Origin: Calditrichota bacterium
GTDB taxonomy: Bacteria > Zhuqueibacterota > Zhuqueibacteria > Thermofontimicrobiales > Thermofontimicrobiaceae
Reading direction: 5' to 3'
Assembly: GCA_013152715.1 (NCBI GenBank)
Contig: JAADFU010000207.1
Span: forward strand, 1 to 40,096
Length of the DNA: 40,096 nt
In this document: positions 7,722 to 32,820 of the stretch, piece after piece
Layout of the letters: each line of letters opens with the position of its first letter
Numbering within the stretch: position 1 is the stretch's first letter
Made by a program: the position numbers and the translations under genes
Notes under the pieces: model-generated
Database searches by the model: none
Seen by the model: the letters and a program-made list of their open reading frames with translations, nothing else
What the model was told of the DNA's origin: nothing

Positions 7722-10700
7722 TTATCTAAAATCACCCGTAATATTGAACGCCGACCAGTACAAAGGGTGCGCATTAATGTTGTTTTTCACAAATAACACA
7801 GCTTGTTGCAATGCGCGTGCCCGCGAATAACCCTGATGCAAATATCTGAAAAATCGCTTTATCGTCACTGCCGTCGCCAGATCGTCCACTTTCCACAAAC
7901 TGGACAGCAACGAAGACGCCCCGGCGTAAATGAAACTTCGCGACAAACCAACCACCTCATCGCCGACGCCGACTTTCGACAAACCAGTTTCGCACGCGCT
8001 CATTGCCACGAGATAGGCGTGGATGTCCAGACCAAATATTTCGTGAGCTTCCAGCCTGCCATCATTCTTGTCATCCGGCGCCAAAAGCAACGCCGAAAAA
8101 AGCGGATTCAAGGGATCAAATTCGCCATGGCAGGAGAAAAGCAACAAATTCGCATTTGCGCTCAATTCCTTGGCTTTCGTCTCCTGCGCTTCTTTTCCCA
8201 GAAACGCCTGTACATGAGGGTAAATCAACTCAATACTCTCAATCTCTTTCTTTGCAAAAGGCAAATCGTAGCGGGCATCTCCGACATCCGGATTTCCCAG
8301 CGCTAAAATATTCGGCTGCCAGTTTTTATTTGTGACAAACTCATCGCCCTTGTCCATACACGTCGCCCAGACCATGGCGCTCGGGCTCAGCGAAATAGTG
8401 TGTTTCTCAATCAAATATTTATTTTCTTCATCCAGCAAAGCGCTAAAAGGAAGGTAGTGAAGCACGCCGTGAGGAATAATGACCAAATGCGAATTTTCGT
8501 TCAGCGATTTTTCCACCGGCGAAAGCAAAAGACGATACAAATTTTTAAGAAGATTTTGTACCAATAATTGCTTCTGGATGGACTTTCTCAAAGTATCCAC
8601 CAAAGCGTACAATTTCCGTTCGCTGATTTTTTGTTGCACAGCAAGCACGCGCCCATTGGAAATTGCCCACAAATACAACTTTTCCGCTGTGGTGAAATAT
8701 TCCAACAGCAGCACACTATCCGGCAGCATTTTTTGAAAATATTCTATCGACTTCGGCTCTACTGAAATCATCGACGCCAATTCTGGATTCTGTTCTTTCA
8801 AATCCAAAAGAAACTGCTGATAAGCCGCTCGGAGAGAATCCAATTGTTGCGTCAACGCAGTTAATTTTTTCTTCTTTCCGGGCATATTCTGTAATCCAGA
8901 CAATTTGAGCAGGCCCATCTCATTTTGCAACTGACTCATTGCTTCTTCAATGCGCCGCTTTTTGACGAAATCTTCTTCTTTCACTGCTCCGCGAAAATCG
9001 ATTTTTTTGTTCGCCAGCAAGTCGGCAAAATTGCGCGATTTAGCGCGTTCAGCGATTTCAAATGCCTTTTTTTGTTGGTTTGAAGCCAGATAAAAATCGA
9101 TCAGCGCGTAATACACGTCCAGTTTGTCATCGATGAAGCCAGACTTGTATTCTTCAATTTTAATTTTTGAACGCATCGTCTCAATGGTGGACATGGCACG
9201 CAAAAATGAACTCTCAGCCAATTGAGTTTTTCCCTGATCGCGATAAATTTTTGCTAAAGCAAAATAGGCGCGCCACGACACTTCCGGCACGAAGAGCTGC
9301 TCCGCCATTCCTCCGGCTAAACTGAGTGTGTCCTCTGCCGCTGCCATGTCCTGCATTTTTTGATGATACAAACCAATTTCGTACAAAGTCTGCACGAAAT
9401 TTCTTCCGTCCAAAATTTTCTGGCTCAAACTCAGCGCTTTGTGCAAATTGGCGTAAGCATCGGCATAAAGAGATTGCGACAGTTGAATAGTTCCCAGATC
9501 GCGATAGTCATAACTCAAACCGCGCAATGCGCCGGATTTCTCGTCCAATTTGATCGCTTCCCGCAAATGAAAACTCGCCTCATCCATGCGCTTTGCGGTT
9601 CTGAACATCATGCTCAAATTTTTGTGTATCGTCGCCTGATCGATCAAAGATCCTGTTTCTTCTGCCAGCGACAATGCCTGCGTTTCAAATTCGATTGCTT
9701 TTTCCAGATCGCCCAGGCTCATGTGAATCAAGCCTTTCGTCGACAAAGCCACGGACTGGAATTTTTTATTTTCTAATTTTTTGAACAATGCCATAGCCTT
9801 TTTCTGGTATTGCAGCGCTTTTTGGTAATCCGCCATCTTCCAGTAAATATTTGCCAGATACTGCAAAGACAGCCCAATCCACTGGTTGGATTTCAATTTT
9901 TTCGCCAACTCATAGCCTTGCTGCTGCAACTCCAAAGCTTTCTGGTAATTTGCCAGTCTTTCGTGGCTCATTCCCAAATTTTGCAGCAGTTCCATTGAAT
10001 TAGCGACATCACCGAAATTTTGAAAAATGTGCAGCGCCGCTTCCTGATCGTTAATGGCACGCGCGTATTGATCAAGATAAAGCAAAAATATTCTGCCGCG
10101 GTTTTTGAGACATTCCGCCACTTTCAGGCTATCCCCCAGAGCGCGGTATTCCTGAACTGCCTTACTGAAATTTTCCACAGCAGCGCTGTAGTCTCGGCTC
10201 TGTTCATAGACCAGTCCCAATCTGCGGTAGGAATCAGCAGCTTCTTCTTTCTGATGATATTTTTCAGCAATTTGCAAGTACTGTTTTTGATAGGAGATTG
10301 CCTTGTCGTAATCTTTATTTTGCGTGTAAAAATAAATCAAATAGCGCATTTGTTCGATGAGTTGCTCCCCGTCTCCGCTGTCTTTGGCGCGATCGACCAA
10401 TTCTTTCTGGTAAAGAATCGCCCGCTCCCACATTTCTCCTTTTGCCGCAGAGTAAATGATCAATTGGTACAAATTAGCGATAGCATTTTGATCGCCCTGC
10501 TTTTTCGCCATCACCAGCGCCTGCTCGTAAGCATTCAGCGCGTCTCTCCATTTTTCTTCTTCGTAATATTGATTCCCCACCATGACTTTCGCCATAAATC
10601 TTTGCCGTGCGAATTCTTCCTCCTGCGCATTGGTCATTCCCTCAAATCCGACGGTCTGAAAAAACGCGTACGCAGAAGGCGGATATTTTTCCGCAGCCAT

Positions 10701-13700
10701 CATTCGCTGAGCGCGAAAAAGCGCATCGGCCGGGGGATAATCAAAAAGGTAATCATAAAAATATTCCAAAAATTTTCCTGTGGTTTCAGTTTCTCTTCCC
10801 AAAATCAAACTGGGAACCCCGGCATAAATGAGCGATCTTTCAAATAACAATCGCGTGATTTCTGACTGAAAATTCCTTTTCAAAAGAAAGGCTGCCACCG
10901 ACCCCTTGAAATTAATTTCGAAAATATCGCGCAAAAACACATCTGCATTTGATGTCTTCCCTGACAAAATTTTTGACATTAACGGATCGGAACGATTTTC
11001 CTCCATTTGAGAAGCAACAGCCATGAAATCCACAGAGGACATTTTCTCCAACAATGCTGCTGTCGTCTGATTTTTTTTCTTGTCCTCGCTGACATTGTAG
11101 CCCAATTCGGCAACAAGGTAAGTGTAATTCGGCTCATTTGCCCAGAAATAGTCCCCTTTGATTTTCCTATTGAGAAAGCTGTAATAGTATCCGGCAAAAT
11201 CAGGCGCCACGACCACATTTCTCACCGCAGGAAACAATGGCACAGAGAATCGAATGAAATAATTGAAAGGAAGCTCAGCGAGGAAGGCATCCGGGACAAA
11301 AATCAATGTCCGGTAATTTTCTAACGCTGTCGCAATGGGATCGATCAAAATTTTTCGCAAATCACGGGCATAAATTTCCGCCTCAGCGCTGTCGATGTTT
11401 TGGATGTAATTTTTTATTTTTAATTTCACCTTCGCCGGTTCAATTTCCACCTGCGCCATCGCCACAGAATCTTCATTGATCACCCAGATATTGAGCTTTT
11501 TCCCAGTGAAAAAATAATCAACGATTACACGCGAGCCCCCTAAAATGCGTTGAACTTCTCCCGTGGACACCGGGTCGGGACTGATCAGCGCCTCTAATTC
11601 AGGATCTTCGCTTTTTAAGTCTTTCAACAATTTCGCGTACTCATCTTCGTAATTTTTTTTCTGCTTTGTCCACATCACCAAATCTTGCTGCGACGCGTTT
11701 CCCACTTCACGCGCGCGGCGCAATTTCTCATCCAGCGCGGTAATTTCCCGAGACAAATAGCGCGCATTGCCGAGAAAAATTTTGTGTCGCTCTTTCTTAA
11801 GACGCAGGCGGTGATTGCTGATCAGGCTCAGAAAATTCACACCGCGATATTTTTCTGCAAGCTGCAGTGCCGCCTCTGTTTTTCTTTTATCCAATTGAAA
11901 ACGAATCGCCGCTTCAAATAATTGGCGCACTTTGTCCAAATAAATCGGCGAAATGCGATATTTTTTGGCACTTAAAATCGAACGATCAAGGGATTCAATC
12001 GCTTCAGTGAAATAGAAATCCGCACTTTTAATCCGCAGATCATTTTTACCTTTATAAATTTGCGCTAATTTCGCCAGAGAAAAATCAATCTCCCAGAGCT
12101 TCTGATAACCGTTCGTCTGATAAGCTAATTTTCTGGCATCGGTCAATTTTTTCAATGCCGGTTCTATTTCGCCAAGGCGGGAGCTAATTGCGGACAGGTT
12201 CTGATCGGCGTAGATTTTCAGATTGTCCAATCCGTTTTCGCTGCACAAATTCTCCGCCTGACGATAACAGCTATCCGCTATTGCCCACTTTTCCCAGATG
12301 CGCAGGTTTTCAGACAATAAATTTTCCAAATCACTATCGCGGTTAACTAATTGGGACGCTGTGGATTGCAGAAAATGCAAATTACCGGCTAAAATGTAAA
12401 GTTGGGCTAAATCGCGTTTGAAACCGTAAGTCAATTTTTCAATTTTCGGAATGACCGCCTGGGTTATCTCCAGGCTGCGGATCAATCGCCGTTCTGCTTT
12501 TTCATCCACCTCAATGTTTGTGGTGTCCGGCAATAATTTCAATTTATTCACCACAACGGCCAGCGCGCTCAAATTCACCGCATTCATCACCTGCCCGGGC
12601 AATATTTCTTCCTTGCGACAAATTTGATAGGAATGATAAAATTGGTCCCACGATTCGGAATAGTCCGCTTTGAGATAATACAAATAGCCAATGTTGTTTA
12701 AAAAAATCGCCTCGGCGACCTTGTCTTTTTTTTGCTGGTAGATTTTCAACTTCTGCTTCAGATAACTGATTGCATGATCCACATTGCGCTGTCCCAGGGC
12801 AGCATTTCCCAAAATCGAATAAATCAACGCGATTTCCTCGTCGGTGGTAAAACCTCCGGCTGCTGTTGATTGGCCGGCGCTAATTTGTCCCAGGTTGTAA
12901 ACCGGAATTTCCCAGCCAAGAATGCCGATTTTTATCCAATTGGGCTCGGCATTAATGCGTTTGACCTTTCCTGATTGAATCAATCCGATGGCTAACTTCG
13001 CGTAGCGCACCGCCTCTTCCTCGTCATTGAGCAGCAAAAAATTGTAAGCAATACTGCGATAATCAGTTTCCAACTGATTGTAACGACGATGTTTCCTGTC
13101 AAATTTCGCCGCTTGTTTGAAATATTCAATGGAAAGATCGTAATCGCCGGCTAATTGATAGAGCAGCGCCAGTCTTTTTGTGGAAATATTCGCTGCTTTC
13201 TGGTCGCCGAGATCAATCAATAATTTTATCGCTCTTTTGAGAAAATAGGGTCCTTTTTCAAAATCTTCAACAACCAAAGCACAATGTCCCATTTTGCGAA
13301 AAACTTCCGCCTCAACGCGCTCATTGACAAAAGTCGAATCATATTTCAGTTTTATTTGATAATAATGATACGCTTTTTCAAAACCAAATTCTTTCAGATT
13401 ATAAAAATTCGACGCCAAATTTAGCGCTAACTCGCTCTCTAACTTGGGATTAGCATTTTCGTCATTTAGCGCAATCGCCGTCGTCAAGGCGTCAATTGCC
13501 TTTTCGTAGTAACGTTTCTGGCCTTTTTCCTTTTGAAAAGTGATGGTTTGAAAAATCGACTTCACCGGCGCGATTGCCGCATCGAACGCGCGCTCGAAAA
13601 ATGATTTCTGCAAACTTGCTTTTGCGGCACCATATTTTTCCAGCGTCTCGTAGTTAAAACTCAGTGTCAAGTAAGCTTGTATCATGCGATAGTCTTTGGA

Positions 13701-16172
13701 AAGAGCTTTCTCGATAAGCTGCACTGATTTTTCCATCAACTCAGGGTTCAAATCCAGCGCCTGTCCCGTGCGATCCCTTTTTTCGGTCGCCTGGTAGGAG
13801 TAACATAGCCCCAACAAATACAAATATTTTTCCTGAAAAGGATATTTTTCAAGACGATTTTCATAAAAACGAATCGCATCATCGATACGACCCAGTTGGT
13901 AAAGCGAAGCCACCATGCCGCGATTTGCGTCCAGATGAGTTGGCATCAGCGCGACTGCTTGACGAAACCGATTATAGGCAGCATTCACTTCTCCGTAACG
14001 TTGAAAATTTGACCCCGTCTCCAGATATAGATTGAAAAGCCGCTCCTCTGCCTCGATGCCAAATTTTCCGTTTTCAACAGAAATATATTTTGCCGCAACT
14101 TCCTTGTAAGCCCTGATGGCGCCGATGTCATCATCTCGAATCAGCAAAATTTTTCCCAGGAATAAAAGCGCCCTGGCTGTTTCTGCCGGCAATTCGGAAA
14201 AATCAGACTGTAGGGCACGCAGTTCTTGCACCGCGGCGGCGTAATCTTTTTGCTGATAAAAAATTTCTGCGATGCGATAGCGCGCTCTGGCGCCGAGACG
14301 AGGGTAATCGGAATAATTTTGAATGAGTAGCCGCAGAGACGAAATTGTCTGATAGGGGTCGTCTTCCTCAGCGAGAGCCAAAATTTTATCCAGCGCCTGA
14401 TTGACAAAGTTTGTTTCGGACGGATAAAATTGAGGCACTTTCAGATAAACGGAAATTACTTCCTCTTTCTGACCGAAAAGCGAAAAAACATCACCAATTA
14501 AAAGTTGGGCTTGGGCGCAACGCGCGATCTCGTGCGGATACGAGGAAATCAATTTTTCTAATTTCTGAATCGCTGTTGTATATTTTTTTTTCAAAAAATA
14601 AAGTTCAGCCAGATACAATTGTGCTTCCGCTTCGACGGGGCTAATGCCCGCTGCCTGCTTTTTAATTTTCTCTAATTTTTCCACTTGCGCCTGAAAAGAA
14701 TCAATCTTTTTTGCACGATCCAATTCAAATAACCGTAAACTTGCCCTGCCGACTAATTCACGATTTTGCGGAAATAATTTGATAATTTCTTCCAAATAAG
14801 ACCTGGCAACCAACGTGTCGCCCATGAAAGCGTACGTTCTCGCCAACTCGTAATAGGTTTCGCCGAAACGCGCGTGTTGTTCCGGGAAAAAATCAAACAC
14901 CCGTTGAAAAGCCAACAAACGATAGGCTAACTCCGTGGGAGACAATGAATTACTTCGACCGAACAGTAAATCTGTTTCTGGCAAAGGAAAATATGATTTG
15001 GCAAATTGAAACTGAACAAAGGCATCGTCAAACCGGGGAATTGCGCCGTCTTCGCTGACGCTGAAAATATCTTCTGCACCGCCCCGGCGAGACACAAAAT
15101 AAATCATGGAATCCGGCGAACCGACAGCATAAAAATCGTATTCAAGCGCGGGAATTAATTTGATCTCTTGAAAAGATAAAATCTGTTGCGGCTCCCGCTG
15201 CCGAACATGAAAATCAGACAGCGCAGAACCCGGGGGACTCGTCTGATTTTGTCGAAAATTTGAGGTCAAAATCGAGCGCCAGTTTAGTTGCACTTTCCAC
15301 AATTCAGGCTGATCGTCAGGCGTGAGCAAACCATCCCTGTCGGTATCGTTCGCGTAACGTGTGAAAAAGATTTCGTTTCTTTGGGGATGCCAGCGAGGAA
15401 AGGCGTCGTTCGTTCTGCCGTCAGTGACTGGTTGCACAGATTTAATTTCAATATTTGTCCCGGAAAAATCAATTTCTCCGATGAAAATTTGTCCGTAATT
15501 TTTCGGCGGAAGGAATGCGGCAAAACACAGATATTTCCCGTCCGGCGACCAGCTCGGATGCGTTGCTTTCATGGGCGAAAGCTGAAAAATCTGCCAATCC
15601 CTCATGCGAATCAGATAGAGCCGAAAAGTGCCGTCCCTGTCTGACGAGAAAGCAATGTATTTTCCGTTTGGCGAAAATGAGGGGTAGAGATCAGCGCCCA
15701 GATATTTGGTAATTCGAAGCGGGGCGCCATGAGGAAAAACGCCATATTTTCGTACTTTTATCGGGACGATCCACAAATCACCCTGCGCATCCTCGCGATA
15801 AGAGACAAACACCAAATTTTTCCCGTCAGGCGCCCAACAGGGCATAATGTCATCGGATTTGTGTTTTGTGATTTGAATTGCCGAACCGCCGGCGACGGGC
15901 TTCACCCAAATGTCCATATTGCCGCTGCGTTTAGAGGCAAAAGCGACCCATTTTCCATCTGGCGAAACAGCGGGAAACATATCCGTTTCCGGATGCGTGG
16001 TAATTTGCTCATAAATTTGCGTCAGATCAAAACCCGTGGAGCTTCTTGCACGCGCCGTTTTTTTGGGCTGTTCAAAGAAAAAATTCTTGTAATGAGCGCA
16101 CGAGAGAAAAATGGCGCTCGCGAGCAAAATTTGTAGGAACAAACGCGGTAAGATAGACTTGATTATTTTCAT
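7722..16172 (-). CDS. Giant lipoprotein: TolB-like propeller, TPRs, degenerate CHAT domain, TPRs, active-type CHAT protease domain
   Basis: 2816 aa. The N-terminus ends in the lipobox FLSC (Cys25), so it is an envelope lipoprotein. Residues about 60-375 hold six PD40/TolB-type repeats with the SPDGK core, enough for a six-bladed propeller. Helical TPR repeats fill about 400-1460. A first CHAT-like domain (about 1520-1860) has Met1723 near the expected His and no Cys near 1763. A second TPR block (about 1860-2380) leads to a second CHAT domain (about 2460-2816) with His2682 in FSCHGEFD and Cys2727 in SACETG, the normal caspase-like pair 45 residues apart. CHAT domains are caspase-related proteases, often gated by TPR-bound partners. 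Its substrate is unknown. It has its own spacing from the upstream operon, with a terminator-like hairpin only 30 bp before the ATG. Confidence 0.9.
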   Translation of the reverse strand: MKIIKSILPRLFLQILLASAIFLSCAHYKNFFFEQPKKTARARSSTGFDLTQIYEQITTHPETDMFPAVSPDGKWVAFASKRSGNMDIWVKPVAGGSAIQITKHKSDDIMPCWAPDGKNLVFVSYREDAQGDLWIVPIKVRKYGVFPHGAPLRITKYLGADLYPSFSPNGKYIAFSSDRDGTFRLYLIRMRDWQIFQLSPMKATHPSWSPDGKYLCFAAFLPPKNYGQIFIGEIDFSGTNIEIKSVQPVTDGRTNDAFPRWHPQRNEIFFTRYANDTDRDGLLTPDDQPELWKVQLNWRSILTSNFRQNQTSPPGSALSDFHVRQREPQQILSFQEIKLIPALEYDFYAVGSPDSMIYFVSRRGGAEDIFSVSEDGAIPRFDDAFVQFQFAKSYFPLPETDLLFGRSNSLSPTELAYRLLAFQRVFDFFPEQHARFGETYYELARTYAFMGDTLVARSYLEEIIKLFPQNRELVGRASLRLFELDRAKKIDSFQAQVEKLEKIKKQAAGISPVEAEAQLYLAELYFLKKKYTTAIQKLEKLISSYPHEIARCAQAQLLIGDVFSLFGQKEEVISVYLKVPQFYPSETNFVNQALDKILALAEEDDPYQTISSLRLLIQNYSDYPRLGARARYRIAEIFYQQKDYAAAVQELRALQSDFSELPAETARALLFLGKILLIRDDDIGAIRAYKEVAAKYISVENGKFGIEAEERLFNLYLETGSNFQRYGEVNAAYNRFRQAVALMPTHLDANRGMVASLYQLGRIDDAIRFYENRLEKYPFQEKYLYLLGLCYSYQATEKRDRTGQALDLNPELMEKSVQLIEKALSKDYRMIQAYLTLSFNYETLEKYGAAKASLQKSFFERAFDAAIAPVKSIFQTITFQKEKGQKRYYEKAIDALTTAIALNDENANPKLESELALNLASNFYNLKEFGFEKAYHYYQIKLKYDSTFVNERVEAEVFRKMGHCALVVEDFEKGPYFLKRAIKLLIDLGDQKAANISTKRLALLYQLAGDYDLSIEYFKQAAKFDRKHRRYNQLETDYRSIAYNFLLLNDEEEAVRYAKLAIGLIQSGKVKRINAEPNWIKIGILGWEIPVYNLGQISAGQSTAAGGFTTDEEIALIYSILGNAALGQRNVDHAISYLKQKLKIYQQKKDKVAEAIFLNNIGYLYYLKADYSESWDQFYHSYQICRKEEILPGQVMNAVNLSALAVVVNKLKLLPDTTNIEVDEKAERRLIRSLEITQAVIPKIEKLTYGFKRDLAQLYILAGNLHFLQSTASQLVNRDSDLENLLSENLRIWEKWAIADSCYRQAENLCSENGLDNLKIYADQNLSAISSRLGEIEPALKKLTDARKLAYQTNGYQKLWEIDFSLAKLAQIYKGKNDLRIKSADFYFTEAIESLDRSILSAKKYRISPIYLDKVRQLFEAAIRFQLDKRKTEAALQLAEKYRGVNFLSLISNHRLRLKKERHKIFLGNARYLSREITALDEKLRRAREVGNASQQDLVMWTKQKKNYEDEYAKLLKDLKSEDPELEALISPDPVSTGEVQRILGGSRVIVDYFFTGKKLNIWVINEDSVAMAQVEIEPAKVKLKIKNYIQNIDSAEAEIYARDLRKILIDPIATALENYRTLIFVPDAFLAELPFNYFIRFSVPLFPAVRNVVVAPDFAGYYYSFLNRKIKGDYFWANEPNYTYLVAELGYNVSEDKKKNQTTAALLEKMSSVDFMAVASQMEENRSDPLMSKILSGKTSNADVFLRDIFEINFKGSVAAFLLKRNFQSEITRLLFERSLIYAGVPSLILGRETETTGKFLEYFYDYLFDYPPADALFRAQRMMAAEKYPPSAYAFFQTVGFEGMTNAQEEEFARQRFMAKVMVGNQYYEEEKWRDALNAYEQALVMAKKQGDQNAIANLYQLIIYSAAKGEMWERAILYQKELVDRAKDSGDGEQLIEQMRYLIYFYTQNKDYDKAISYQKQYLQIAEKYHQKEEAADSYRRLGLVYEQSRDYSAAVENFSKAVQEYRALGDSLKVAECLKNRGRIFLLYLDQYARAINDQEAALHIFQNFGDVANSMELLQNLGMSHERLANYQKALELQQQGYELAKKLKSNQWIGLSLQYLANIYWKMADYQKALQYQKKAMALFKKLENKKFQSVALSTKGLIHMSLGDLEKAIEFETQALSLAEETGSLIDQATIHKNLSMMFRTAKRMDEASFHLREAIKLDEKSGALRGLSYDYRDLGTIQLSQSLYADAYANLHKALSLSQKILDGRNFVQTLYEIGLYHQKMQDMAAAEDTLSLAGGMAEQLFVPEVSWRAYFALAKIYRDQGKTQLAESSFLRAMSTIETMRSKIKIEEYKSGFIDDKLDVYYALIDFYLASNQQKKAFEIAERAKSRNFADLLANKKIDFRGAVKEEDFVKKRRIEEAMSQLQNEMGLLKLSGLQNMPGKKKKLTALTQQLDSLRAAYQQFLLDLKEQNPELASMISVEPKSIEYFQKMLPDSVLLLEYFTTAEKLYLWAISNGRVLAVQQKISERKLYALVDTLRKSIQKQLLVQNLLKNLYRLLLSPVEKSLNENSHLVIIPHGVLHYLPFSALLDEENKYLIEKHTISLSPSAMVWATCMDKGDEFVTNKNWQPNILALGNPDVGDARYDLPFAKKEIESIELIYPHVQAFLGKEAQETKAKELSANANLLLFSCHGEFDPLNPLFSALLLAPDDKNDGRLEAHEIFGLDIHAYLVAMSACETGLSKVGVGDEVVGLSRSFIYAGASSLLSSLWKVDDLATAVTIKRFFRYLHQGYSRARALQQAVLFVKNNINAHPLYWSAFNITGDFR

Positions 16173-16202
16173 CGCTCGGCTTCAGTTAAAATGAACCCCA
16201 CA

Positions 16203-16247
16203 AATAAAAAGATCATGTCATGGCAAGCCAGGCATGATCTTTTTATT
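16203..16247. terminator. Bidirectional terminator hairpin between the DUF1318 gene and the giant CHAT gene
   Basis: A perfect 15-bp stem (16203-16217 with 16233-16247) around a 15-nt loop, with A-run and T-run at the outer ends. On the minus strand it ends in TTTTTATT, as expected for a stop after the DUF1318 gene. It also lies only 30 bp upstream of the giant gene's start codon, so that gene either has a promoter overlapping this element or depends on read-through. Confidence 0.8.
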
Positions 16248-16268
16248 GCTCTGATTCATTCATTCGCT

Positions 16269-16847
16269 TTATTTTTTCTCAGCTTGTTTTTGCACCCATT
16301 CGCCGCTGTCCAATTGAATCCAGGAGCCGGACGCAACATTGTCCTGATTCATTTTCGCGAAAATATGCCCGACATTTTGTTCGCCGGCTTTGGCAGCATC
16401 TTCGTTCAAAACAATAATGCGATCCATGATAATTTTTCGGTATTCATTTTCCGACTGGACTATTTTTTCCACGCGATTTTTCAACGTCTCGTCACTGCCG
16501 ATTTTCTCGGGATGAATAATCTCCAAAAAGCCGCGATTATTTTCGCCGACAATACCGGCTTTCAAAAATTCGTCCACATCGTCTTTATTAAATTTTCTTC
16601 CCTGAACCGCCTCTAAAACTTTCTTTTTATTTTCCGACATTTTGGGTTGAGGCGCCGTGTTGCCCACCGACCTCACCGAAGTCAATGTCCAGACATCTTC
16701 TTCAATCTGTTCGTACGTTCCGATGACCTGATTTTCCAGCGCCGTTTTTTCTCCGGTAACACTGACTTCCGGCGCCTTCACGCTGCAATACACCAACAGC
16801 AGCACCAACGCCAGACTCCAAACGAGGATTTTTTTTCTGTGAATCAT
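16269..16847 (-). CDS. YdbL/DUF1318-family lipoprotein
   Basis: 192 aa from the chosen ATG at 16847, which has an AGGAGG ribosome-binding site 6 nt upstream. A longer frame starts with TTG at 16874 and has none. The N-terminus is a hydrophobic helix ending LLVYC (Cys21), an acceptable though not ideal lipobox. The body carries DUF1318 hallmarks: VTGEKTALENQVIGTYEQI, then a GRKFNKDDVDEFLKAGIVGE block (about 95-115) and a FLEI segment. In other bacteria this family (YdbL) is found with outer-membrane and AsmA-like proteins; no biochemical role is firmly assigned. It is last of three in the YtxH-DUF948-DUF1318 operon. Confidence 0.78.
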   Translation of the reverse strand: MIHRKKILVWSLALVLLLVYCSVKAPEVSVTGEKTALENQVIGTYEQIEEDVWTLTSVRSVGNTAPQPKMSENKKKVLEAVQGRKFNKDDVDEFLKAGIVGENNRGFLEIIHPEKIGSDETLKNRVEKIVQSENEYRKIIMDRIIVLNEDAAKAGEQNVGHIFAKMNQDNVASGSWIQLDSGEWVQKQAEKK

Positions 16848-16879
16848 TTTTGCCTCCTGACGTGCAATTTTCAAAAAAA

Positions 16880-17260
16880 TTATTTCCGCATAAACTCAAA
16901 AAAAGTGCGCAGCGCTCGCGATACAGCAGATAGTAAAGTAGCAAATTCCACAAACGGTTGACTAACTCGTTCGTTGAGCGTTTTTTCAATTTGAGTAATC
17001 CGCGCCACGGTTTCTTTGATATTTCCGACGCCCTGTTCGACCATCCCCACTTGCTTTTGTACCGACTGAACGATACGCTTGACATCATTCACGACAATCG
17101 TCAAATCGTGGGAAATCGGTACGATTTGCTGGCGCGTCACTTCCATGAGTTTTTCGGCTTCGCGGGCGGTGCGTCGAATCTGCGCCAGTGCAACCAACAG
17201 ACCGATCACAAAAATCACAATAAAAACCGCGATCACAACAATGCTAATTTCAACAAGCAT
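16880..17260 (-). CDS. DUF948-family membrane protein with coiled-coil tail
   Basis: 126 aa. One transmembrane helix occupies about residues 5-28 (IVVIAVFIVIFVIGLLVAL), followed by a long heptad-like helical region of about 80 residues with regularly spaced Val/Ile and polar positions. This is the layout of the DUF948 family, uncharacterised proteins often beside YtxH. A strong GGAGG ribosome-binding site lies about 5 nt before the ATG. It is 19 bp downstream of the ytxH-like gene and 32 bp upstream of the DUF1318 gene, so all three are co-transcribed. Likely a structural or adaptor protein at the inner membrane; function unknown. Confidence 0.78.
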   Translation of the reverse strand: MLVEISIVVIAVFIVIFVIGLLVALAQIRRTAREAEKLMEVTRQQIVPISHDLTIVVNDVKRIVQSVQKQVGMVEQGVGNIKETVARITQIEKTLNERVSQPFVEFATLLSAVSRALRTFFEFMRK

Positions 17261-17280
17261 ATTTTCCTCCGCCCGAATTT

Positions 17281-17745
17281 TTATTTTTTGTCTTTTGTCA
17301 TTTCATCGTCAAACGCCTGCTTGCTGGCTTCGATCGCTTTGGAAATTTTTCCGCGCTTTTTGGGCGAAGCTTTTTTCTTTTCTCCCTCTTCTGGCTCAAC
17401 GTCTTTCTCCGGAGACATCTTTTTCTTCAAATCGTCAGCCACTCTTTTGCTTTCAGCCAAAATTTGTTCGTATTTTGTTCTGGCTTCTTCAAATTTTTTC
17501 TCCGCTTCCTGGCGAAGTTGTTCGGCTCTCTTCAAAGCGTCGGCGAATTTTTCTTCGGAAAAACTTCTGGCATCGGAATAAAATTTTTCCGCATCGCCCA
17601 ACAACTCATCTGATTTTTCTCTCAAATCTTTGCGCAATTCATCGCCTTTTTTGGGCGCGTACAACAGAGCTAATCCGGCGCCAATTAATCCGCCGAAAAC
17701 CAACCCTTTGAAAAATGACCCGCCGTCAGATTTTTCGTCGCTCAT
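17281..17745 (-). CDS. YtxH-domain protein with charged helical tail
   Basis: 154 aa from the ATG at 17745, chosen because AAGGAG lies 6 nt upstream; the open frame runs 24 codons further but without a start signal. The YtxH signature is clear: GSFFKGLVFGGLIGAGLALLYAPKKGDELRKDL (about 9-41), a glycine-rich membrane helix followed by the APKKG turn. The remainder is a highly charged Lys/Glu-rich helix, probably a coiled coil, with a KKKASPKKRGK basic stretch. YtxH proteins are general-stress-associated in Bacillus, but no mechanism is known. First gene of the three-gene operon, transcribed away from the patatin operon. Confidence 0.8.
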   Translation of the reverse strand: MSDEKSDGGSFFKGLVFGGLIGAGLALLYAPKKGDELRKDLREKSDELLGDAEKFYSDARSFSEEKFADALKRAEQLRQEAEKKFEEARTKYEQILAESKRVADDLKKKMSPEKDVEPEEGEKKKASPKKRGKISKAIEASKQAFDDEMTKDKK

Positions 17746-18030
17746 GGGGCACTCCTTAATTTTTTTTGTCCGAGTTTCTTTATATTTCAAATTACTACAA
17801 AAATCATTGAAAATCAAGGGATTTTTGCATTCCCCGAAATCTCACTGTTTTAATTTTCCATATTGAAAGAGTATCTTTGTTTGTTTTGATCTTCGCAATG
17901 AAACTACCTACCTTTTGTTACGTAAAGGAACTTTAAACTGTTCCTTGTTAAATTTATTATTTTTTAAAAAATGTGTTGATTTTTTTAATTAAAACCCTTA
18001 ATTTCATTTTTAATAGAATAACGGGGCTCT
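17746..18030. promoter_or_regulatory. Divergent intergenic region between the ytxH operon and the patatin operon
   Basis: 285 bp of AT-rich sequence that must carry both promoters. A clean inverted repeat lies at 17925-17946: AAGGAAC, 8-nt spacer, GTTCCTT. It has operator-like size and no adjacent U-run. No single -35/-10 pair stands out; a TTGATT box near 17973-17978 on the plus strand is one weak candidate. Confidence 0.45.
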
Positions 18031-21099: not shown

Positions 21100-23091
21100 T
21101 TACTTCCTTCTTCCCAAAAACACCATCCGTTTCACAGATGTTTGATTTTTAAATTTTATCTGACAAAAATATATTCCCGCTGCCATTCTCTGCTCAGACG
21201 AATTCAATCCGTCCCAATAGCGCACATAGTGTCCCGCCGAATGAAAATCATCGACGATGGTTTTGACTTTTTGACCGAGAATGTTGTAAATAGTAATTTT
21301 CACATCTCCCGGCTGACCGAGATCGTATTTTATCGCTGTGATGTTTTCAAATGGATTCGGTGCGTTCTGAAATAAAATGAAATCTTCAGGCAGCGGCTTA
21401 TTTTTTCTTGCGCTGGAATCAAATGCCACAAAAGAAAAATAATCCCGCGGAGCAAAATAGGGATGCGTTTTTCGATCGCCAGAGACATCGCGGGCTGAAA
21501 AATACAATTTCACTAACGAGCCATCCGGTTGCGGCGGAATCCAGGCATGATAAGCGTTTTCCTGATCGACTTTTGTCAAAGCCAATTTTTGAAAATGAGA
21601 ATTTTCTTCGGTCAAATAATAGACAAATAATGAGTCGGGAACCAGATCATACTTTGAAAAAATTTTGATGGTCACACCATGTCCCTGCTGGCGGTCGTGG
21701 GTAATTTCCGGCATGTTGCTGAAAAACAGCCCATGATAAAAAATTGCCTCGTAAGCGTCAACAATTCCCCAGCCGATATCGTTGTTCGGATTTTCCGCAT
21801 TGGACGCCGTCTCTCGCAGCGCTTTTGCCACCTGATACGGCGACAGATAAGGATGAGCCTCTAAAATCAGCGCGGCAACTCCGGCGACAAGCGGACAGGA
21901 AAGCGAAGTTCCGCTGGCTCGGCGATAACCATCCACAGTTCCGGCAGTTGCGCCGCGAACGCTCACGCCCATGGCGTCGACATCCGGCTTGATCCTTCCG
22001 TCTGCTGTAGGGCCCCGGGAACTAAAACTTGCTAATTCTCCATCACTGCTTACAGCGCCCACAGAAATTACATCTTCTGCATCGGCAGGTGCAATCATGT
22101 AGTGCCAACTATTGTTGCCTTCGTTTCCCATACTATTGACGACGACAACGCCTTTCTGCGCCGCCATTTCCGCCGCCTGTGTGGTGACGGCAGTCGTGCC
22201 GTCCATGTCTTTGTAAGAATACCAATCCAGATAGCCGAGCGAACTACTCACCACATCGACGCCGTTCCTCTCCAGCCATTCCAGTCCGGCGACCCAGAAA
22301 TCTTCTTCCGCCGGATATTCATTGCTCACATCTTCGGTTTTCGCCAGATAAAATGTCGCGCCGTACGCCGGGCCGATTAATTTTTCCGGCGCAAAACCTC
22401 CGATGGCCGACAGCGTCAGGGTGCCGTGACTTTGCTGCGAGCTGAGATCACCAGCCTCATTTTGCGTCACACTGTCCTGATTAATGAAATCGTACTCACC
22501 AACAACATTGAGATGTAGAAACGCCTCGTGATATTTGTAATCAAAGCCGGTATCCAGCATACCAATGATCACGCCGCTGCCGTCAAATCCCAAATCGTGA
22601 ACGTCGGTGACGCGAATGAGCTCGTTCTGCGTGAGCGAGGGTCCGTAATCCAGACGATGCGACTGAGGCTTGTGCAGAAAAAATTCTTCTGCCGGCAGCG
22701 GTTTTTCTCGCCGGAATTTTGCCACCGGCTGGATTTTTCTCACAAAGCCCAACCGCAAAATTTGTCGCCGCGTATTTTCATTCACTTCCGCACTGACGGC
22801 ATTAAGCCAGCGGGATTGAACGATTGGGTTCACGCCGATATTTTTTAGCGCTAACAGATATTCAGCCGAAATTTCCACATCGCTCTCATCGACGACATCG
22901 CCCATGACGCGCACTTTTTCGCGGCGCTGAAGCGTCCGTGCTGAGAGTTCCTTTTTGACTTGTTCGATCTGGCGAGTAAGTTGGTAGGGCGAGTTACCTT
23001 TGTCCCTGAAAAAAATCCAATACTTCTCCGCCGCAAAGCCTGAAATTGGTATTACAGCACAAACTAACAAGAGAATTATTTTTCGAATCAT
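21100..23091 (-). CDS. Secreted subtilisin-like serine protease (S8) with C-terminal sorting module
   Basis: 663 aa. A signal peptide (about 1-20, ending GFA-A) is followed by an inhibitor-like propeptide (about 22-125) and a peptidase S8 domain with Asp180 in GMLDTGFD, His222 in SHGT, oxyanion Asn323 in MGNEG and Ser396 in SGTSLSCP, so the catalytic set is complete. After a beta-rich linker, the last ~90 residues form a FlgD/type-IX-secretion-style module: QNAPNPFENIT, then YNILGQKVKTI and AGIYFCQIK. This suggests export and cell-surface attachment or release. It shares the terminal module with the genes at 29950 and 31759. It is transcribed divergently from priA and is probably monocistronic. 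Confidence 0.92.
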   Translation of the reverse strand: MIRKIILLLVCAVIPISGFAAEKYWIFFRDKGNSPYQLTRQIEQVKKELSARTLQRREKVRVMGDVVDESDVEISAEYLLALKNIGVNPIVQSRWLNAVSAEVNENTRRQILRLGFVRKIQPVAKFRREKPLPAEEFFLHKPQSHRLDYGPSLTQNELIRVTDVHDLGFDGSGVIIGMLDTGFDYKYHEAFLHLNVVGEYDFINQDSVTQNEAGDLSSQQSHGTLTLSAIGGFAPEKLIGPAYGATFYLAKTEDVSNEYPAEEDFWVAGLEWLERNGVDVVSSSLGYLDWYSYKDMDGTTAVTTQAAEMAAQKGVVVVNSMGNEGNNSWHYMIAPADAEDVISVGAVSSDGELASFSSRGPTADGRIKPDVDAMGVSVRGATAGTVDGYRRASGTSLSCPLVAGVAALILEAHPYLSPYQVAKALRETASNAENPNNDIGWGIVDAYEAIFYHGLFFSNMPEITHDRQQGHGVTIKIFSKYDLVPDSLFVYYLTEENSHFQKLALTKVDQENAYHAWIPPQPDGSLVKLYFSARDVSGDRKTHPYFAPRDYFSFVAFDSSARKNKPLPEDFILFQNAPNPFENITAIKYDLGQPGDVKITIYNILGQKVKTIVDDFHSAGHYVRYWDGLNSSEQRMAAGIYFCQIKFKNQTSVKRMVFLGRRK

Positions 23092-26583: not shown

Positions 26584-26622
26584 AAAAGATCAACTTTTTT
26601 TCAAAACAGGAGAATGAACATC

Positions 26623-27132
26623 ATGGTCAACAAACTGGAAAGCAGCGGAACTCCCATTGTGATTTCGGGCGAGCTGTACAAATCGATTTCGGAAATTGTC
26701 GACGATCTCGCCACGAAAATCCGTGCGCGGACGGTCATTTTCGCTGATATGAACGGCCATCCGATCACGCAACGCGGCATCGGAACGGAAATTGATTTGC
26801 CGAATCTCACCGCCCTCGGCGCCGGGTCATTTTCCGCGACTGCTCAAATCGCTAAAATCGTCGGAGAGAAAGATCATTTCCGATTCATTTTTCACGAGGG
26901 GGAGAAATTCAATCTTTTCCTTTCCAACGTGGGCAACAACTTTATTTTGATCACAGTTTTTGACACTTCTTCCGCGCTGGGAATAGTACGAATTTACACA
27001 AAAAGAGCGATTCAAGCAATGGAAGAGATTTTGGGCAAAACAGATACGACCGACGGCGAAGAACATCAATTTTTGGACGTGGAGTTCAGCAAGATTTTGA
27101 ACCAGGAACTGGAAAAAGCTTTCAAACTTTAA
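26623..27132 (+). CDS. Roadblock/LC7-domain protein (MglB-like), first copy
   Basis: 169 aa from the ATG at 26623. An ATG at 26614 in the same frame sits only 1 nt after the AGGAG motif, which is too close, while 26623 has a workable 10-nt spacing. The sequence ARTVIFADMNGHPITQRG, then NLTALGAGSFSATAQIAKIVGE and an FNLFLSNVGNNFILITVFDTSSALGIVRIYTKRA strand-helix pattern fit the Roadblock/LC7 fold. Such proteins bind MglA-type GTPases and can act as GTPase-activating proteins. The C-terminal ~30 residues form an acidic helical extension. It is followed after 33 bp by the MglA gene. Confidence 0.82.
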   Translation: MVNKLESSGTPIVISGELYKSISEIVDDLATKIRARTVIFADMNGHPITQRGIGTEIDLPNLTALGAGSFSATAQIAKIVGEKDHFRFIFHEGEKFNLFLSNVGNNFILITVFDTSSALGIVRIYTKRAIQAMEEILGKTDTTDGEEHQFLDVEFSKILNQELEKAFKL

Positions 27133-27165
27133 AACGCCAACTTCAACAATTTCAGGGAATAGTAG

Positions 27166-27783
27166 ATGTTCATCAATTGGGCGACAAATGAAATTACGTT
27201 AAAAATTGTCTATTACGGACCCGGATTGGGGGGCAAGACAACCAGCCTGCAGCACATTTACCGGCATCTCGATCCGTCGCTGCGCGGCAATTTGGTCACG
27301 CTGAACACACGCGAAGATCGCACTCTGTTTTTCGATTTTTTACAACTCGATTTCGGAAAAATTTTGCATCGCCGGCCGCGGTTTAATCTTTACACTGTCC
27401 CGGGCCAGGTTTACTACTCCGAAAGCCGCCGCATCATCCTGTCCGGCGTGGACGGAATCGTTTTTGTCGCTGACGCCCAAAAAGAGAGAATGGACGATAA
27501 TTTAGAGTCGCTGTTAGACCTTGAGAATAATTTGATCGGCATGGGAAAAACACTGCAACACTTCCCCTGGGTGTTGCAAATTAATAAAGTTGATCTTCCA
27601 AATCGCGAACATCCAAAAATTTTGAGACAAAAATTAAATTATTTTCAGGTGCCTCAAATCGAAAGCATTGCCACCAAGGGAACCGGCGTCATGCAGGCGC
27701 TAAAACTCATTCTGTCAATTGTTGTCAAAAAAATTCAGGCGCAGCCGCAACCTCAGCAAGAAGCAAAAAGGACATACGTATGA
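27166..27783 (+). CDS. mglA: MglA-family small Ras-like GTPase
   Basis: 205 aa. The start MFINWATNEITLKIVYYGPGLGGKTTSL is typical of MglA, with the P-loop GPGLGGKTT. Switch I region LNTREDRTLFFDFL and switch II TVPGQVYYSESR carry the MglA variant TVPGQ in place of DxxGQ. The base-recognition motif is NKVDLP. MglA proteins are polarity switches for motility and cell organisation, hydrolysing GTP with help from Roadblock proteins. Here it is flanked by two Roadblock genes and overlaps the second by 4 nt (ATGA). No pilus or gliding genes lie in the window. The C-terminal tail is Gln/Lys-rich. Confidence 0.93.
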   Translation: MFINWATNEITLKIVYYGPGLGGKTTSLQHIYRHLDPSLRGNLVTLNTREDRTLFFDFLQLDFGKILHRRPRFNLYTVPGQVYYSESRRIILSGVDGIVFVADAQKERMDDNLESLLDLENNLIGMGKTLQHFPWVLQINKVDLPNREHPKILRQKLNYFQVPQIESIATKGTGVMQALKLILSIVVKKIQAQPQPQQEAKRTYV

Positions 27784-28184
27784 GCAAAGAATTATCGCCG
27801 CAGGAACAAATCCAGAAATTCATGTCTGAAATCATCAAAGACGGGAATTACGAGACAGCCTATCTGTTTTCCGAAGAAGGACTCACGTTAGCGCGCACAA
27901 CAAAAGAGCAGCTCATTGAAGAAGACCGCTTTGTGGAAATGTCGATGATTCTGCAAAATATTCAACGCATGGCAGACGTCATGGGCGGCATCAACGACAT
28001 TCGCGAGTTGATCATCGACGGCAACAATCGCCGAAAAATTGTGTTTCGCTTTTTTCACGCCTTTGATCAGGATTTAGTGCTGGCGCTCATCATCCCCCCG
28101 CGCAAACCATACCGTGGTCTGACAAATAAGCTTGTTCGACTGGTACAAAAAATTTCACACGGAGACGCAAAGCCACAAAGTTAA
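27780..28184 (+). CDS. Roadblock/LC7-domain protein, second copy; C-terminus runs into a repeat
   Basis: 134 aa, overlapping mglA by ATGA. The fold pattern is Roadblock-like: a helix (SPQEQIQKFMSEIIKD), YETAYLFSEEGLTLAR, a long helix with MILQNIQRMADVMGG, and RELIIDGNNRRKIVFRFFHAFDQDLVLALIIPP. It is shorter than the first Roadblock protein, as expected for a second, distinct partner. The last nine residues, SHGDAKPQS, and the stop codon are encoded by the left arm of the inverted repeat beginning at 28154, so the original C-terminus was probably different. Confidence 0.8.
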   Translation: MSKELSPQEQIQKFMSEIIKDGNYETAYLFSEEGLTLARTTKEQLIEEDRFVEMSMILQNIQRMADVMGGINDIRELIIDGNNRRKIVFRFFHAFDQDLVLALIIPPRKPYRGLTNKLVRLVQKISHGDAKPQS

Positions 28185-29949: not shown

Positions 29950-31230
29950 CTATTTCAGCAAAAGAATTTTTCGCACCTGTTCTGATTTCTCTGAGCGCAA
30001 ACGGCAAAAATAGGTTCCAGATGAAAATCTTTCCCCGTTCCAGATAATTTCATGGAGTCCGGCAGCGAGGTAACCTGATTCCAGGTTTTCAATTAACCGA
30101 CCATTCAGATCAAAAATATCTAATGAAATGTGCATCGACCTCATCAAAGAAAAACGAACCCGCGTGGTCGCATTAAAAGGATTTGGAAAATTCTGCATTA
30201 GAGCAAATTTCCGAACCAGATTTTTCTTTTCCTCTGCCACGACAGAACTGCTCTCCTGAAATCGATAAACGCCATACATTCCCACACCCCATCCGTTGTA
30301 GCCATTGACAAACTCCAAATCTGAGCCGCCCCGATCAAATTGCTCGATCCACGTTTTGCCGGTATCGCTGCTAAAATAAATCTTTTTCTGATCTGTCATC
30401 CACACATTGGCAGGATTGTCGGGGTCAAATTCGACATCATCTCCCCATTGAGTTTGCGGCGTAGAAAAAGACTCCCAGCTTTCACCGCCGTCAAGAGTGC
30501 GCCAGATTTCATGAGTTTTTGAAATTGCCAATCCGACATTCTCATCAAAAAAGCGAAAAACTTGTAAATAGGTTGGAAAATTCGTTGCCTGCCAGGTGTG
30601 ACCGCCATCGCGGGTTTTGTACAGCCTTTGCGGATTTAATCCCGATGCAAAAAAGTAGCCGACATTAGGGTTGACAAAATCAATGCGGCGCCAGGTATCC
30701 CCGGAATAGCCGCCAAATGCAGAATCATTTACAGACACCCAATTTTGTCCGCCGTCAGTTGTACTCAAAAATATCGCCGGCACATCGGGGTTTGTCATTG
30801 CCGCCGCATTATCGCCCATCGCAATTCCAGTTTGATCGTCAAACATCTCAATATAATTCATAAAGTTGACAAGAGATGTATCTTCGAATTGTTTCACCCA
30901 GAAATCTCCCGCGTTCGGAGTGGAAAAAATTTGCCCGCCGGAAGTGGCAATCCAGATTTTCGCGCTGTCTGGCAGCGCAATATCAACCACGGTTCCCATC
31001 ACATCTTCTGGCGCATTTATTTCTTGCCAGTTTTTTCCCCCGTTCATCGTTCGAAAAATATTTCGATCGCTAGCCAGAACGGCAATTTGTTCGTTTACGG
31101 CGCTGATCACCGCCGCCATGGAAATGCCGGATGGCAGTCCGGCTGTCTGTTTTTCCCACTGCTGTCCCAGAGCGTAGCTCGCACCAAAAACAAGCCACGC
31201 CATGACCAAAATTGATTTTTTCTTTTTCAT
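29950..31230 (-). CDS. Secreted beta-propeller (YCF48/BNR-like) protein with C-terminal sorting module
   Basis: 426 aa from the ATG at 31230, chosen for the GGAGGAG ribosome-binding site 5 nt upstream; an in-frame start at 31245 is less likely. Signal peptide (about 1-22, ending YALG). Residues about 30-330 hold repeats of the BNR/YCF48 kind: TMNGGKNWQEI, STTDGGQNWVSV, KTRDGGHTWQAT, RTLDGGESWESF and SSDTGKTWIEQF, each one blade. The last ~80 residues form the FlgD-like module: MQNFPNPFNATTRVRFSL, then FDLNGRLIENL and GTYFCRLR. Probably an exported surface or secreted protein; ligand unknown. Confidence 0.86.
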   Translation of the reverse strand: MKKKKSILVMAWLVFGASYALGQQWEKQTAGLPSGISMAAVISAVNEQIAVLASDRNIFRTMNGGKNWQEINAPEDVMGTVVDIALPDSAKIWIATSGGQIFSTPNAGDFWVKQFEDTSLVNFMNYIEMFDDQTGIAMGDNAAAMTNPDVPAIFLSTTDGGQNWVSVNDSAFGGYSGDTWRRIDFVNPNVGYFFASGLNPQRLYKTRDGGHTWQATNFPTYLQVFRFFDENVGLAISKTHEIWRTLDGGESWESFSTPQTQWGDDVEFDPDNPANVWMTDQKKIYFSSDTGKTWIEQFDRGGSDLEFVNGYNGWGVGMYGVYRFQESSSVVAEEKKNLVRKFALMQNFPNPFNATTRVRFSLMRSMHISLDIFDLNGRLIENLESGYLAAGLHEIIWNGERFSSGTYFCRLRSEKSEQVRKILLLK

Positions 31231-31758
31231 TTTCTCCTCCACCAAATAGTTTAATCCCCTTAATTTACTACTTTTTTGGTCGGAAATCCAGCATTTTTTA
31301 TTTGCCCACAGATTTTGCTAAAATTATTCTTACTGCAAAAAAACTGGCGTCAGCGTGGCTTGTTAAATTTTCTTCATTTTTTGCTTGCCATTTTCATAAT
31401 AATTTCGTAAAATTTAGTGTTTCTCATTCCGAAGCGCTTTTTGGGCATTTTGAATTCAGATTGATTTTAAAAATATGAATGACAAGTTAGAAAATATTCT
31501 TGTAAATATTACGTTTAAAAACAATGTACTAATTTCAATAAAAATAGTTGATCGTAAAATTTAACTGGTCATTGGTATTAAAAATTAGCTGGTAAAAGGA
31601 GGCGGTACACACAAAAGTCCTTTCGATTGCGATTCCTTTTCTTTCGCTTCTTTCGCATTTCTTCTCTCGCTCGGCAAGCAACCAGTGCACTTATTAATCA
31701 GTGGAAATTTCAAGCAAAACATTCTCCGTTAAATTTCATGTAATTTTTGAGGTGTGCC
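31231..31758. other. 528-bp AT-rich divergent intergenic region
   Basis: The spacer lies between two divergently transcribed secreted-protein genes. It contains a third copy of TGGTCGGAAA (31277-31286), the 13-mer TTTCAATAAAAAT (31533-31545), an SD-like AAAGGAGGCGG near 31596 with no start codon after it, and a pyrimidine-rich tract around 31620-31675. Open frames here lack start signals. No clear promoter was assigned. Confidence 0.6.
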
Positions 31759-32820
31759 ATGTCCAAAAATTTACTTTTCATTCTTCTTTTTCTCTTACGC
31801 GCTCTGGGCGCGCCGGCAGTGGCTCAAGTTCATGTCACTTTGCCGGATACCGCCGTAGGCGCCGACACTGACCTAATTGTGCCGATTATTGTTGACACGC
31901 TGGATCCTTACAATGTTATTTCTCTTGATTTCACGCTGGTTTACGATAGCAACCTCCTGACAGCAAACGATACGCTACTCGCAAATGCTCTGGTAAAACA
32001 ATTCATGTTAATGCAGACAAATTTGTCAAAAGCCGATACCGTATCGTTTGCCGGCTTCGGAATTTTTCCCATTACAGGAGGAGATACGCTCATTAAAATT
32101 TTATTTCACTCGACCAGCAATTCCGGACTTTGTCCGCTCACATTTGCTTCGATCCGTTTCAACGAAGGGGATCCGACGGCAATTATCAGCGACGGCATCG
32201 TTCGCGTCAACCTGGCTCCGATCCCGGTTGAACTGTCGTCTTTTCAGTGCGAAACTCGCGGTCACAAAATTTATCTCAACTGGACGACGCTGTCAGAGAA
32301 AAACAATTACGGCTTTTCAGTACAGCGGGCAATTTGTCAAAATTTGATTTCAGAGCCAGACATCAATTCCTGGAAAAAAATTTCCTTTGTGCCGGGACAT
32401 GGAACGACTGCCGACCGTCACGACTACGAATTTCGTGATGATGCGGAAAATTTTTCAAATTGCTTTTTGTACTATCGTCTGAAACAAATCGACGTCGATG
32501 GCAGTTTTAAATTTTCACCCATTCGCCAGATCCACTTGCTGCCACGCCGATTTTCATTGGCGCAGAATTTTCCCAATCCGTTCAATTCCGCCACCAAAGT
32601 CAAATTTACGACGCCATTCTCCGGCACGGCGAGCGTTCACGTGTACAATGTCCGGGGACAGAAAATATTCACGTTAATCGACAGAAAAACGATGCCAGCC
32701 GGAAGTCACGAATTTAGCATCGATATGAACAGCTATCCGGCGGGGGTTTATTTTTATGAAATAAACTTTGTCGGAGAGCGAAATTTTCATCAGACAAACA
32801 AAATGATTTATCTCAAATAA
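31759..32820 (+). CDS. Secreted protein with cohesin-like domain and C-terminal sorting module
   Basis: 353 aa from the ATG at 31759 (GAGGTG 4 nt upstream); a TTG 12 bp earlier lacks support. Signal peptide about 1-22 (ending AVA-Q). Residues about 25-150 look like a cohesin/carbohydrate-binding-scaffold beta-sandwich: an opening VTLPDTAVGADTDLIVPI, ISLDFTLVYDSNLL and a later SIRFNEGD. A fibronectin-like segment follows (VELSSFQCETRGHKIYLNWT). The C-terminus is the FlgD/type-IX-style module AQNFPNPFNSATKVKF, then YNVRGQKIFTL and AGVYFYEIN. The cohesin assignment rests on pattern only; no dockerin partner is seen. Confidence 0.78.
   Translation: MSKNLLFILLFLLRALGAPAVAQVHVTLPDTAVGADTDLIVPIIVDTLDPYNVISLDFTLVYDSNLLTANDTLLANALVKQFMLMQTNLSKADTVSFAGFGIFPITGGDTLIKILFHSTSNSGLCPLTFASIRFNEGDPTAIISDGIVRVNLAPIPVELSSFQCETRGHKIYLNWTTLSEKNNYGFSVQRAICQNLISEPDINSWKKISFVPGHGTTADRHDYEFRDDAENFSNCFLYYRLKQIDVDGSFKFSPIRQIHLLPRRFSLAQNFPNPFNSATKVKFTTPFSGTASVHVYNVRGQKIFTLIDRKTMPAGSHEFSIDMNSYPAGVYFYEINFVGERNFHQTNKMIYLK

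Follow-up and report, generated by a model that had tools for sequence, protein, structure and literature searches.

Why is a pair of CHAT domains built into a giant protein that carries an export signal, and what could such a protein do in the cell envelope? Most work on CHAT proteases concerns cytosolic effectors that act in immunity or cell death, as in Csx29 and gasdermin activation, and separase is a protease of chromosome segregation. The pair described here lies in a predicted exported protein and is vertically inherited, phylum-wide, with genes of an outer-membrane lipid-transport type. We addressed the question in a window of 40,096 nucleotides from a Calditrichota bacterium, the whole stretch of DNA analysed, and in the homologous loci of related genomes.

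Architecture and distribution of the giant protein

The giant is encoded by a single open reading frame with 0 internal stops and 0 undetermined bases (N), and the codon-position GC pattern is uniform over the whole gene. Its anatomy, derived from 34 full-length proteins, runs from a signal peptide through a TolB-like propeller, TPR block 1, CHAT-1 and TPR block 2 to CHAT-2 (Table 1). Pfam searches matched PD40, TPR families (E-values down to 4e-51) and CHAT (8.5e-68, in two stretches); against the CHAT family PF12770 the protein scored 229 bits, above the Pfam cut-off of 24. In a search of 147 genomes, the giant was found in one frame, at about 2650-2880 aa, throughout the KSB1 phylum, and a profile of the best-conserved TPR part retrieved full-length relatives from several other phyla. 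Named relatives belong to candidate division KSB1, Calditrichota and Candidatus Delongbacteria.

Table 1 Features of the giant-protein locus, in coordinates of the window
Feature	Position	Strand	Residues	Basis
Giant protein, predicted exported	7722..16172	minus	2816 aa	Single intact ORF; full-length homologues in the phylum and beyond
Signal peptide with lipobox Cys25	16098..16172	minus	1-25	Sequence
TolB-like PD40 beta-propeller	15075..16013	minus	about 54-366	Pfam PD40 2e-40; TolB structures ~1e-14; kept in nearly all members
TPR block 1, best-conserved stretch	12603..13520	minus	885-1190	Highest column conservation; alignment A3
CHAT-1, predicted pseudo-protease	10563..11915	minus	1420-1870	hhalign to CHAT-2; AF2; Foldseek
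TPR block 2	9030..10535	minus	about 1880-2381	Pfam TPR_12 and others; tpr2 profile
CHAT-2, presumed active protease (His2682, Cys2727)	7725..8975	minus	2400-2816	Pfam CHAT 2540-2814; alignment A2; AF2; Foldseek
Spacer with strong hairpin and U-run, possible terminator or attenuator	16173..16268	minus		-30.4 kcal/mol, z -3.75
Small lipoprotein with YdbL/DUF1318 C-terminal domain	16269..16874	minus		Pfam DUF1318 1e-9; adjoins the giant gene upstream

The great length of the gene and its origin in a metagenome assembly might raise the suspicion that separate genes had been joined, by fusion, frameshift or misassembly, in assembly or annotation. Such an artefact is ruled out for practical purposes, since dozens of independent assemblies contain full-length homologues that read through in one frame with the same architecture, and codon composition is even along the gene. 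A preliminary description of the locus had proposed a 2816-aa exported protein combining an N-terminal TolB-like propeller, TPR blocks and two CHAT domains. As a predicted architecture, this proposal is borne out by the reading frame and the Pfam matches, and the same domain order recurs throughout KSB1 and in several phyla besides. The six propeller repeats it had counted are likewise visible, as PDGK-like blades at about aa 66-366 that match TolB structures; a part for them in sensing an envelope ligand, which it also put forward, is a possibility.

The lipid anchor that had also been proposed fared less uniformly. Cys25 of the window protein lies in a plausible, though not ideal, lipobox (FLS-C), and the Cys is shared with L012, L040 and L022, but it is absent from most of the family, whose other members have ordinary signal peptides, most of them with no clear lipobox Cys. 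The anchor is thus credible for the window protein and its near relatives and is not a general property. The best-conserved stretch of TPR block 1 holds a non-TPR motif, IKIGILGWEIPVYNLGQ...GFTTDEE. Judged from the alignments, the constant core of the family consists of export, propeller and TPR-1, whereas predicted protease activity and lipidation vary.

Neighbouring genes and shared inheritance

In the preliminary description, the neighbours offered no obvious clue to substrate or trigger. The conserved gene order contradicts this, as a YdbL/DUF1318 lipoprotein gene adjoins the giant gene, with an AsmA-superfamily gene ahead of both in relatives. The YdbL domain occupies the C-terminal half of the small lipoprotein, whose profile (A5) aligned with E. 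coli YdbL in hhalign (7e-8). Of 36 KSB1-phylum loci, 33 have the lipoprotein gene just upstream of the giant, often overlapping it or less than 100 nt away, and in 26 the AsmA-superfamily gene (about 1080 aa; AsmA/DUF748 by Pfam) lies upstream of the two. Outside the phylum, 14 genomes were compared: about 6 had the order AsmA, YdbL, giant, with weak AsmA matches in some of them, and the other 8 had neither partner next to the giant.

The genes also occur together. Among 82 genomes of the phylum, 55 had both the giant and YdbL, 2 the giant alone, 3 YdbL alone and 22 neither, and the counts for the giant and AsmA were the same (55/2/3/22). Genomes without any of the three numbered 21 and were spread over several families, and many discordant cases come from incomplete genomes. 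The co-occurrence gave a Fisher p of ~1e-14, a value that ignores phylogeny. The genetic link of the giant with the YdbL and AsmA genes is strong. The window's own order departs from the common arrangement, as AsmA is not adjacent to the giant and is encoded elsewhere in the genome, and the hairpin and U-run that separate the YdbL and giant genes make simple co-transcription doubtful in that order.

The AsmA partner is not supported as an orthologue of E. coli YdbH: the hhalign comparison of the two was not significant, and a search of the PDB with the partner gave no match. We also sought a YnbE homologue in the N-terminal half of the small lipoprotein, where the lipoprotein signal alone aligned. 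In the window's own genome, an ECF sigma factor-like gene and then a zinc-finger anti-sigma-like gene (L161, 3102-7947) follow the unlinked AsmA gene. This pair was considered as a conserved link to a substrate and rejected, as it is not conserved in G005 and G009; there AsmA has a small-channel-like gene as its neighbour instead.

Several other genes of the window may be recorded here. DUF948 and YtxH-like genes (16883-17817) stand ahead of the YdbL-like gene; a Roadblock/LC7 gene, a small Arf/MglA-like GTPase gene and a third small gene are arranged in tandem at 26614-28184; and a sodium:solute symporter (33590-35512) shows an apparent insertion of an additional soluble domain, at about aa 215-350. 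Three proteins, one of them a subtilase, carry type IX secretion C-terminal sorting domains (21100-23091, 29950-31245 and 31747-32820).

A dead and a presumably live CHAT domain

The presence of two CHAT copies, as first described, is backed by profile comparison and by a confident AlphaFold model of each. The CHAT-1 and CHAT-2 profiles aligned over 382 columns with an E-value of 1.3e-60 (hhalign), and this homology points to duplication of a TPR-CHAT unit as the probable origin of the giant. The model of CHAT-1 had a pLDDT of 93.7 and a pTM of 0.91, with Csx29 as its nearest structure in Foldseek (1e-11). At the dyad positions, CHAT-1 has Gln1722 and Lys1765 instead of His and Cys, and no Cys occupies the Cys position in any of the 34 rows of the alignment, which rules out CHAT-1 as a second active protease. 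Judged by these residues, all the members examined have a pseudo-protease as their first CHAT domain.

CHAT-2 has the expected residues, His2682 in the motif LFSCHGEF and Cys2727 in MSACETG. Both are where the preliminary description had placed them, and the dyad, together with 36 columns in all, is invariant in the 28 divergent rows of alignment A2. In the model (pLDDT 88.3, pTM 0.80), very low confidence is confined to the loop after Cys2727, and the two residues are both located at strand ends. The His and Cys segments align with those of Csx29, which was also the nearest structure in Foldseek (4e-16); separase (9e-11), DdvA and gingipain RgpB matched as well. Nearly all members have the dyad, and the H and C are mostly kept in distant phyla too. 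CHAT-2 may be presumed to be an active protease in most lineages.

The dyad has been lost in at least seven members (L058, L059, L060, L064, L073, L075 and L126), six of which retain the gene cassette. Reliable short forms (L069, L070 and L072) stop before CHAT-2, and L072 shows no sign of CHAT-1; the apparent short forms L071 and L138 were excluded, each being located at a contig end or close to one. On a tree of the TPR-1 region, the dead state of CHAT-2 requires at least four changes among the labelled rows. Several lineages retain the remainder of the cassette with a dead CHAT-2 or with none, so it is not proteolysis that is conserved throughout. The idea of a caspase-like CHAT protease, put forward at the outset, stands for most members through the intact dyad of CHAT-2; it does not extend to CHAT-1, which is dead throughout, or to the lineages in which CHAT-2 is dead or missing.

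Proposed role, alternatives and known systems

In E. coli, ydbL is located in the ydbH-ynbE-ydbL locus, and YdbH, YhdP and TamB are redundant, jointly essential AsmA-like proteins that have been proposed to carry phospholipids across the periplasm (PMC8593681). In this transport of lipid, YdbH has the lipoprotein YnbE as its partner (PMC11784454, PMC12977461). The inheritance of the giant with genes of this kind suggests that a putative protease or scaffold is built into envelope lipid transport. We consider it an even prospect that the giant is an exported scaffold or protease serving an AsmA-type intermembrane lipid-transfer module. It would be a subunit of an envelope module whose partners are the AsmA-superfamily protein and the YdbL-domain lipoprotein. 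The AsmA protein would be anchored in the inner membrane; proteins of its class have been proposed to span the periplasm as phospholipid carriers. The giant would be the periplasmic or membrane-anchored partner of the AsmA protein, perhaps at the outer membrane, by analogy with the YdbH-YnbE module. The propeller and TPR block 1, which nearly every member retains, would most likely dock the giant to the AsmA/YdbL module. CHAT-1 would serve as a dead structural or regulatory copy. In most lineages CHAT-2 would be live, a protease of the separase/Csx29 type with a substrate in the envelope, which it would cut under the control of the TPRs and propeller when these sense a change, such as a bridge that is faulty or not needed. 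Such control would resemble the gating of TPR-CHAT in Craspase (PMC9729208).

A conserved gene order and joint vertical descent are no proof that the giant touches its partners. The unlinked AsmA gene and terminator-like hairpin of the window's own order count against the module, as do the 8 outside-phylum genomes in which no partner is adjacent, the non-significant comparison of the AsmA protein with YdbH and the failure to find a YnbE match. Also, the retention of the cassette by six of the members with a dead CHAT-2 implies that protease control is not essential to the module everywhere. We are more tentative about a fuller picture, an envelope machine shared across the phylum in which the giant, as an exported caspase/separase-like protease with a dead copy built in, assembles or switches an intermembrane lipid bridge of the AsmA type, so that the supply of lipid to the outer membrane comes under proteolytic control; this we think clearly less likely than not.

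The same data could be read without any protease function, the propeller and TPR arms assembling an envelope complex and both CHAT domains being mainly structural, with the dyad kept by inertia in many lineages. The propeller and TPR-1 of nearly all members, including the three short forms without CHAT-2, would fit such a scaffold, as would a CHAT-1 that is always dead and a CHAT-2 dyad lost several times while the cassette was retained. We nevertheless regard this as unlikely, because the invariance of the dyad and of 36 CHAT-2 columns in all in A2, with the retention of H and C in most members from distant phyla, indicates strong selection on the active site in most lineages. That the giant is an envelope-sensing caspase-like protease for stress response, programmed death or defence, independent of lipid transport, appears improbable to us. 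Its nearest folds include Csx29, from immunity, and the CHAT-containing anti-sigma factor DdvA, and several further exported TPR-CHAT proteins are encoded in the same genome; but a PADLOC search of the giant returned a generic TPR model alone and no defence CHAT or protease model, the ECF sigma pair beside AsmA is not conserved, and vertical, phylum-wide, syntenic inheritance with envelope genes is unlike that of defence genes.

BAM accessory and T9SS-type machines use lipoproteins with TolB-like propellers and TPRs. The giant might then be an assembly factor for outer-membrane proteins or lipoproteins, with the AsmA/YdbL pair delivering protein and not lipid. In addition to the shared domains and the T9SS sorting domains in the window, the AsmA partner gave a weak match to GspN, which in Acinetobacter has a reported role in lipoprotein transport to the surface (PMC12802150). 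We give this explanation a slim chance, as no secretion or BAM gene was consistently adjacent among the loci examined.

If the lipid-transfer module is the right reading, the giant is a concrete candidate for a dedicated partner of AsmA-type bridges, for which the further members of functional complexes have been described as unclear (PMC12977461). A core that is conserved while its protease domains are variously live, dead or missing would also constitute a natural experiment in the passage from protease to scaffold. A search of the open literature found no paper combining two of DUF1318, AsmA, CHAT domain and KSB1, which is weak evidence of novelty.

Among known systems, the E. coli ydbH-ynbE-ydbL locus resembles that of the giant in that an AsmA-superfamily gene is followed by small envelope genes ending in YdbL/DUF1318. 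It has no giant partner, and in the giant locus the YdbL domain is part of a lipoprotein and the AsmA protein does not match YdbH significantly. TolB shares the PD40 propeller, which in the giant is fused to TPR-CHAT; the TolB model TIGR02800 scored 107.7 bits, below its curated cut-off of 343 and over the propeller part only. Csx29, the TPR-CHAT protein of type III-E CRISPR (Craspase), likewise has a TPR arm followed by a CHAT domain with a His-Cys dyad, and is the best fold and sequence match for CHAT-1 and CHAT-2 alike. However, it is cytosolic, has a single CHAT domain, is bound to Cas7-11 and RNA, and lacks the propeller, the signal peptide and the link to AsmA and YdbL; its model NF041237 scored 64.9 bits against the giant, below the NCBIfam cut-off of 300. 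Separase combines a long helical-repeat arm with a clan CD protease as the giant does, but it is eukaryotic and has no propeller, and in the giant the whole CHAT unit is duplicated with one copy dead. DdvA (PDB 8rot), a transmembrane anti-sigma factor according to the PDB title, is membrane-associated and has a CHAT fold, but is about 990 aa long with one CHAT match and no propeller. Stand-alone TPR-CHAT proteins of 1122-1178 aa from the same genome also have a signal peptide, TPRs and a C-terminal CHAT domain; they are relatives of the C-terminal third of the giant, lack the propeller, have a single CHAT domain and lie at other loci. Three such proteins (L157, 3220-6756; L159, 863-4267; L160, 2281-5649) begin with apparent signal peptides of the ordinary kind, which makes export of CHAT proteases look general in this lineage and not specific to the giant. 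Neither a Csx29 nor a TolB by these comparisons, the giant would work like a TPR-CHAT protease and, through CHAT-2, is a member of the CHAT family.
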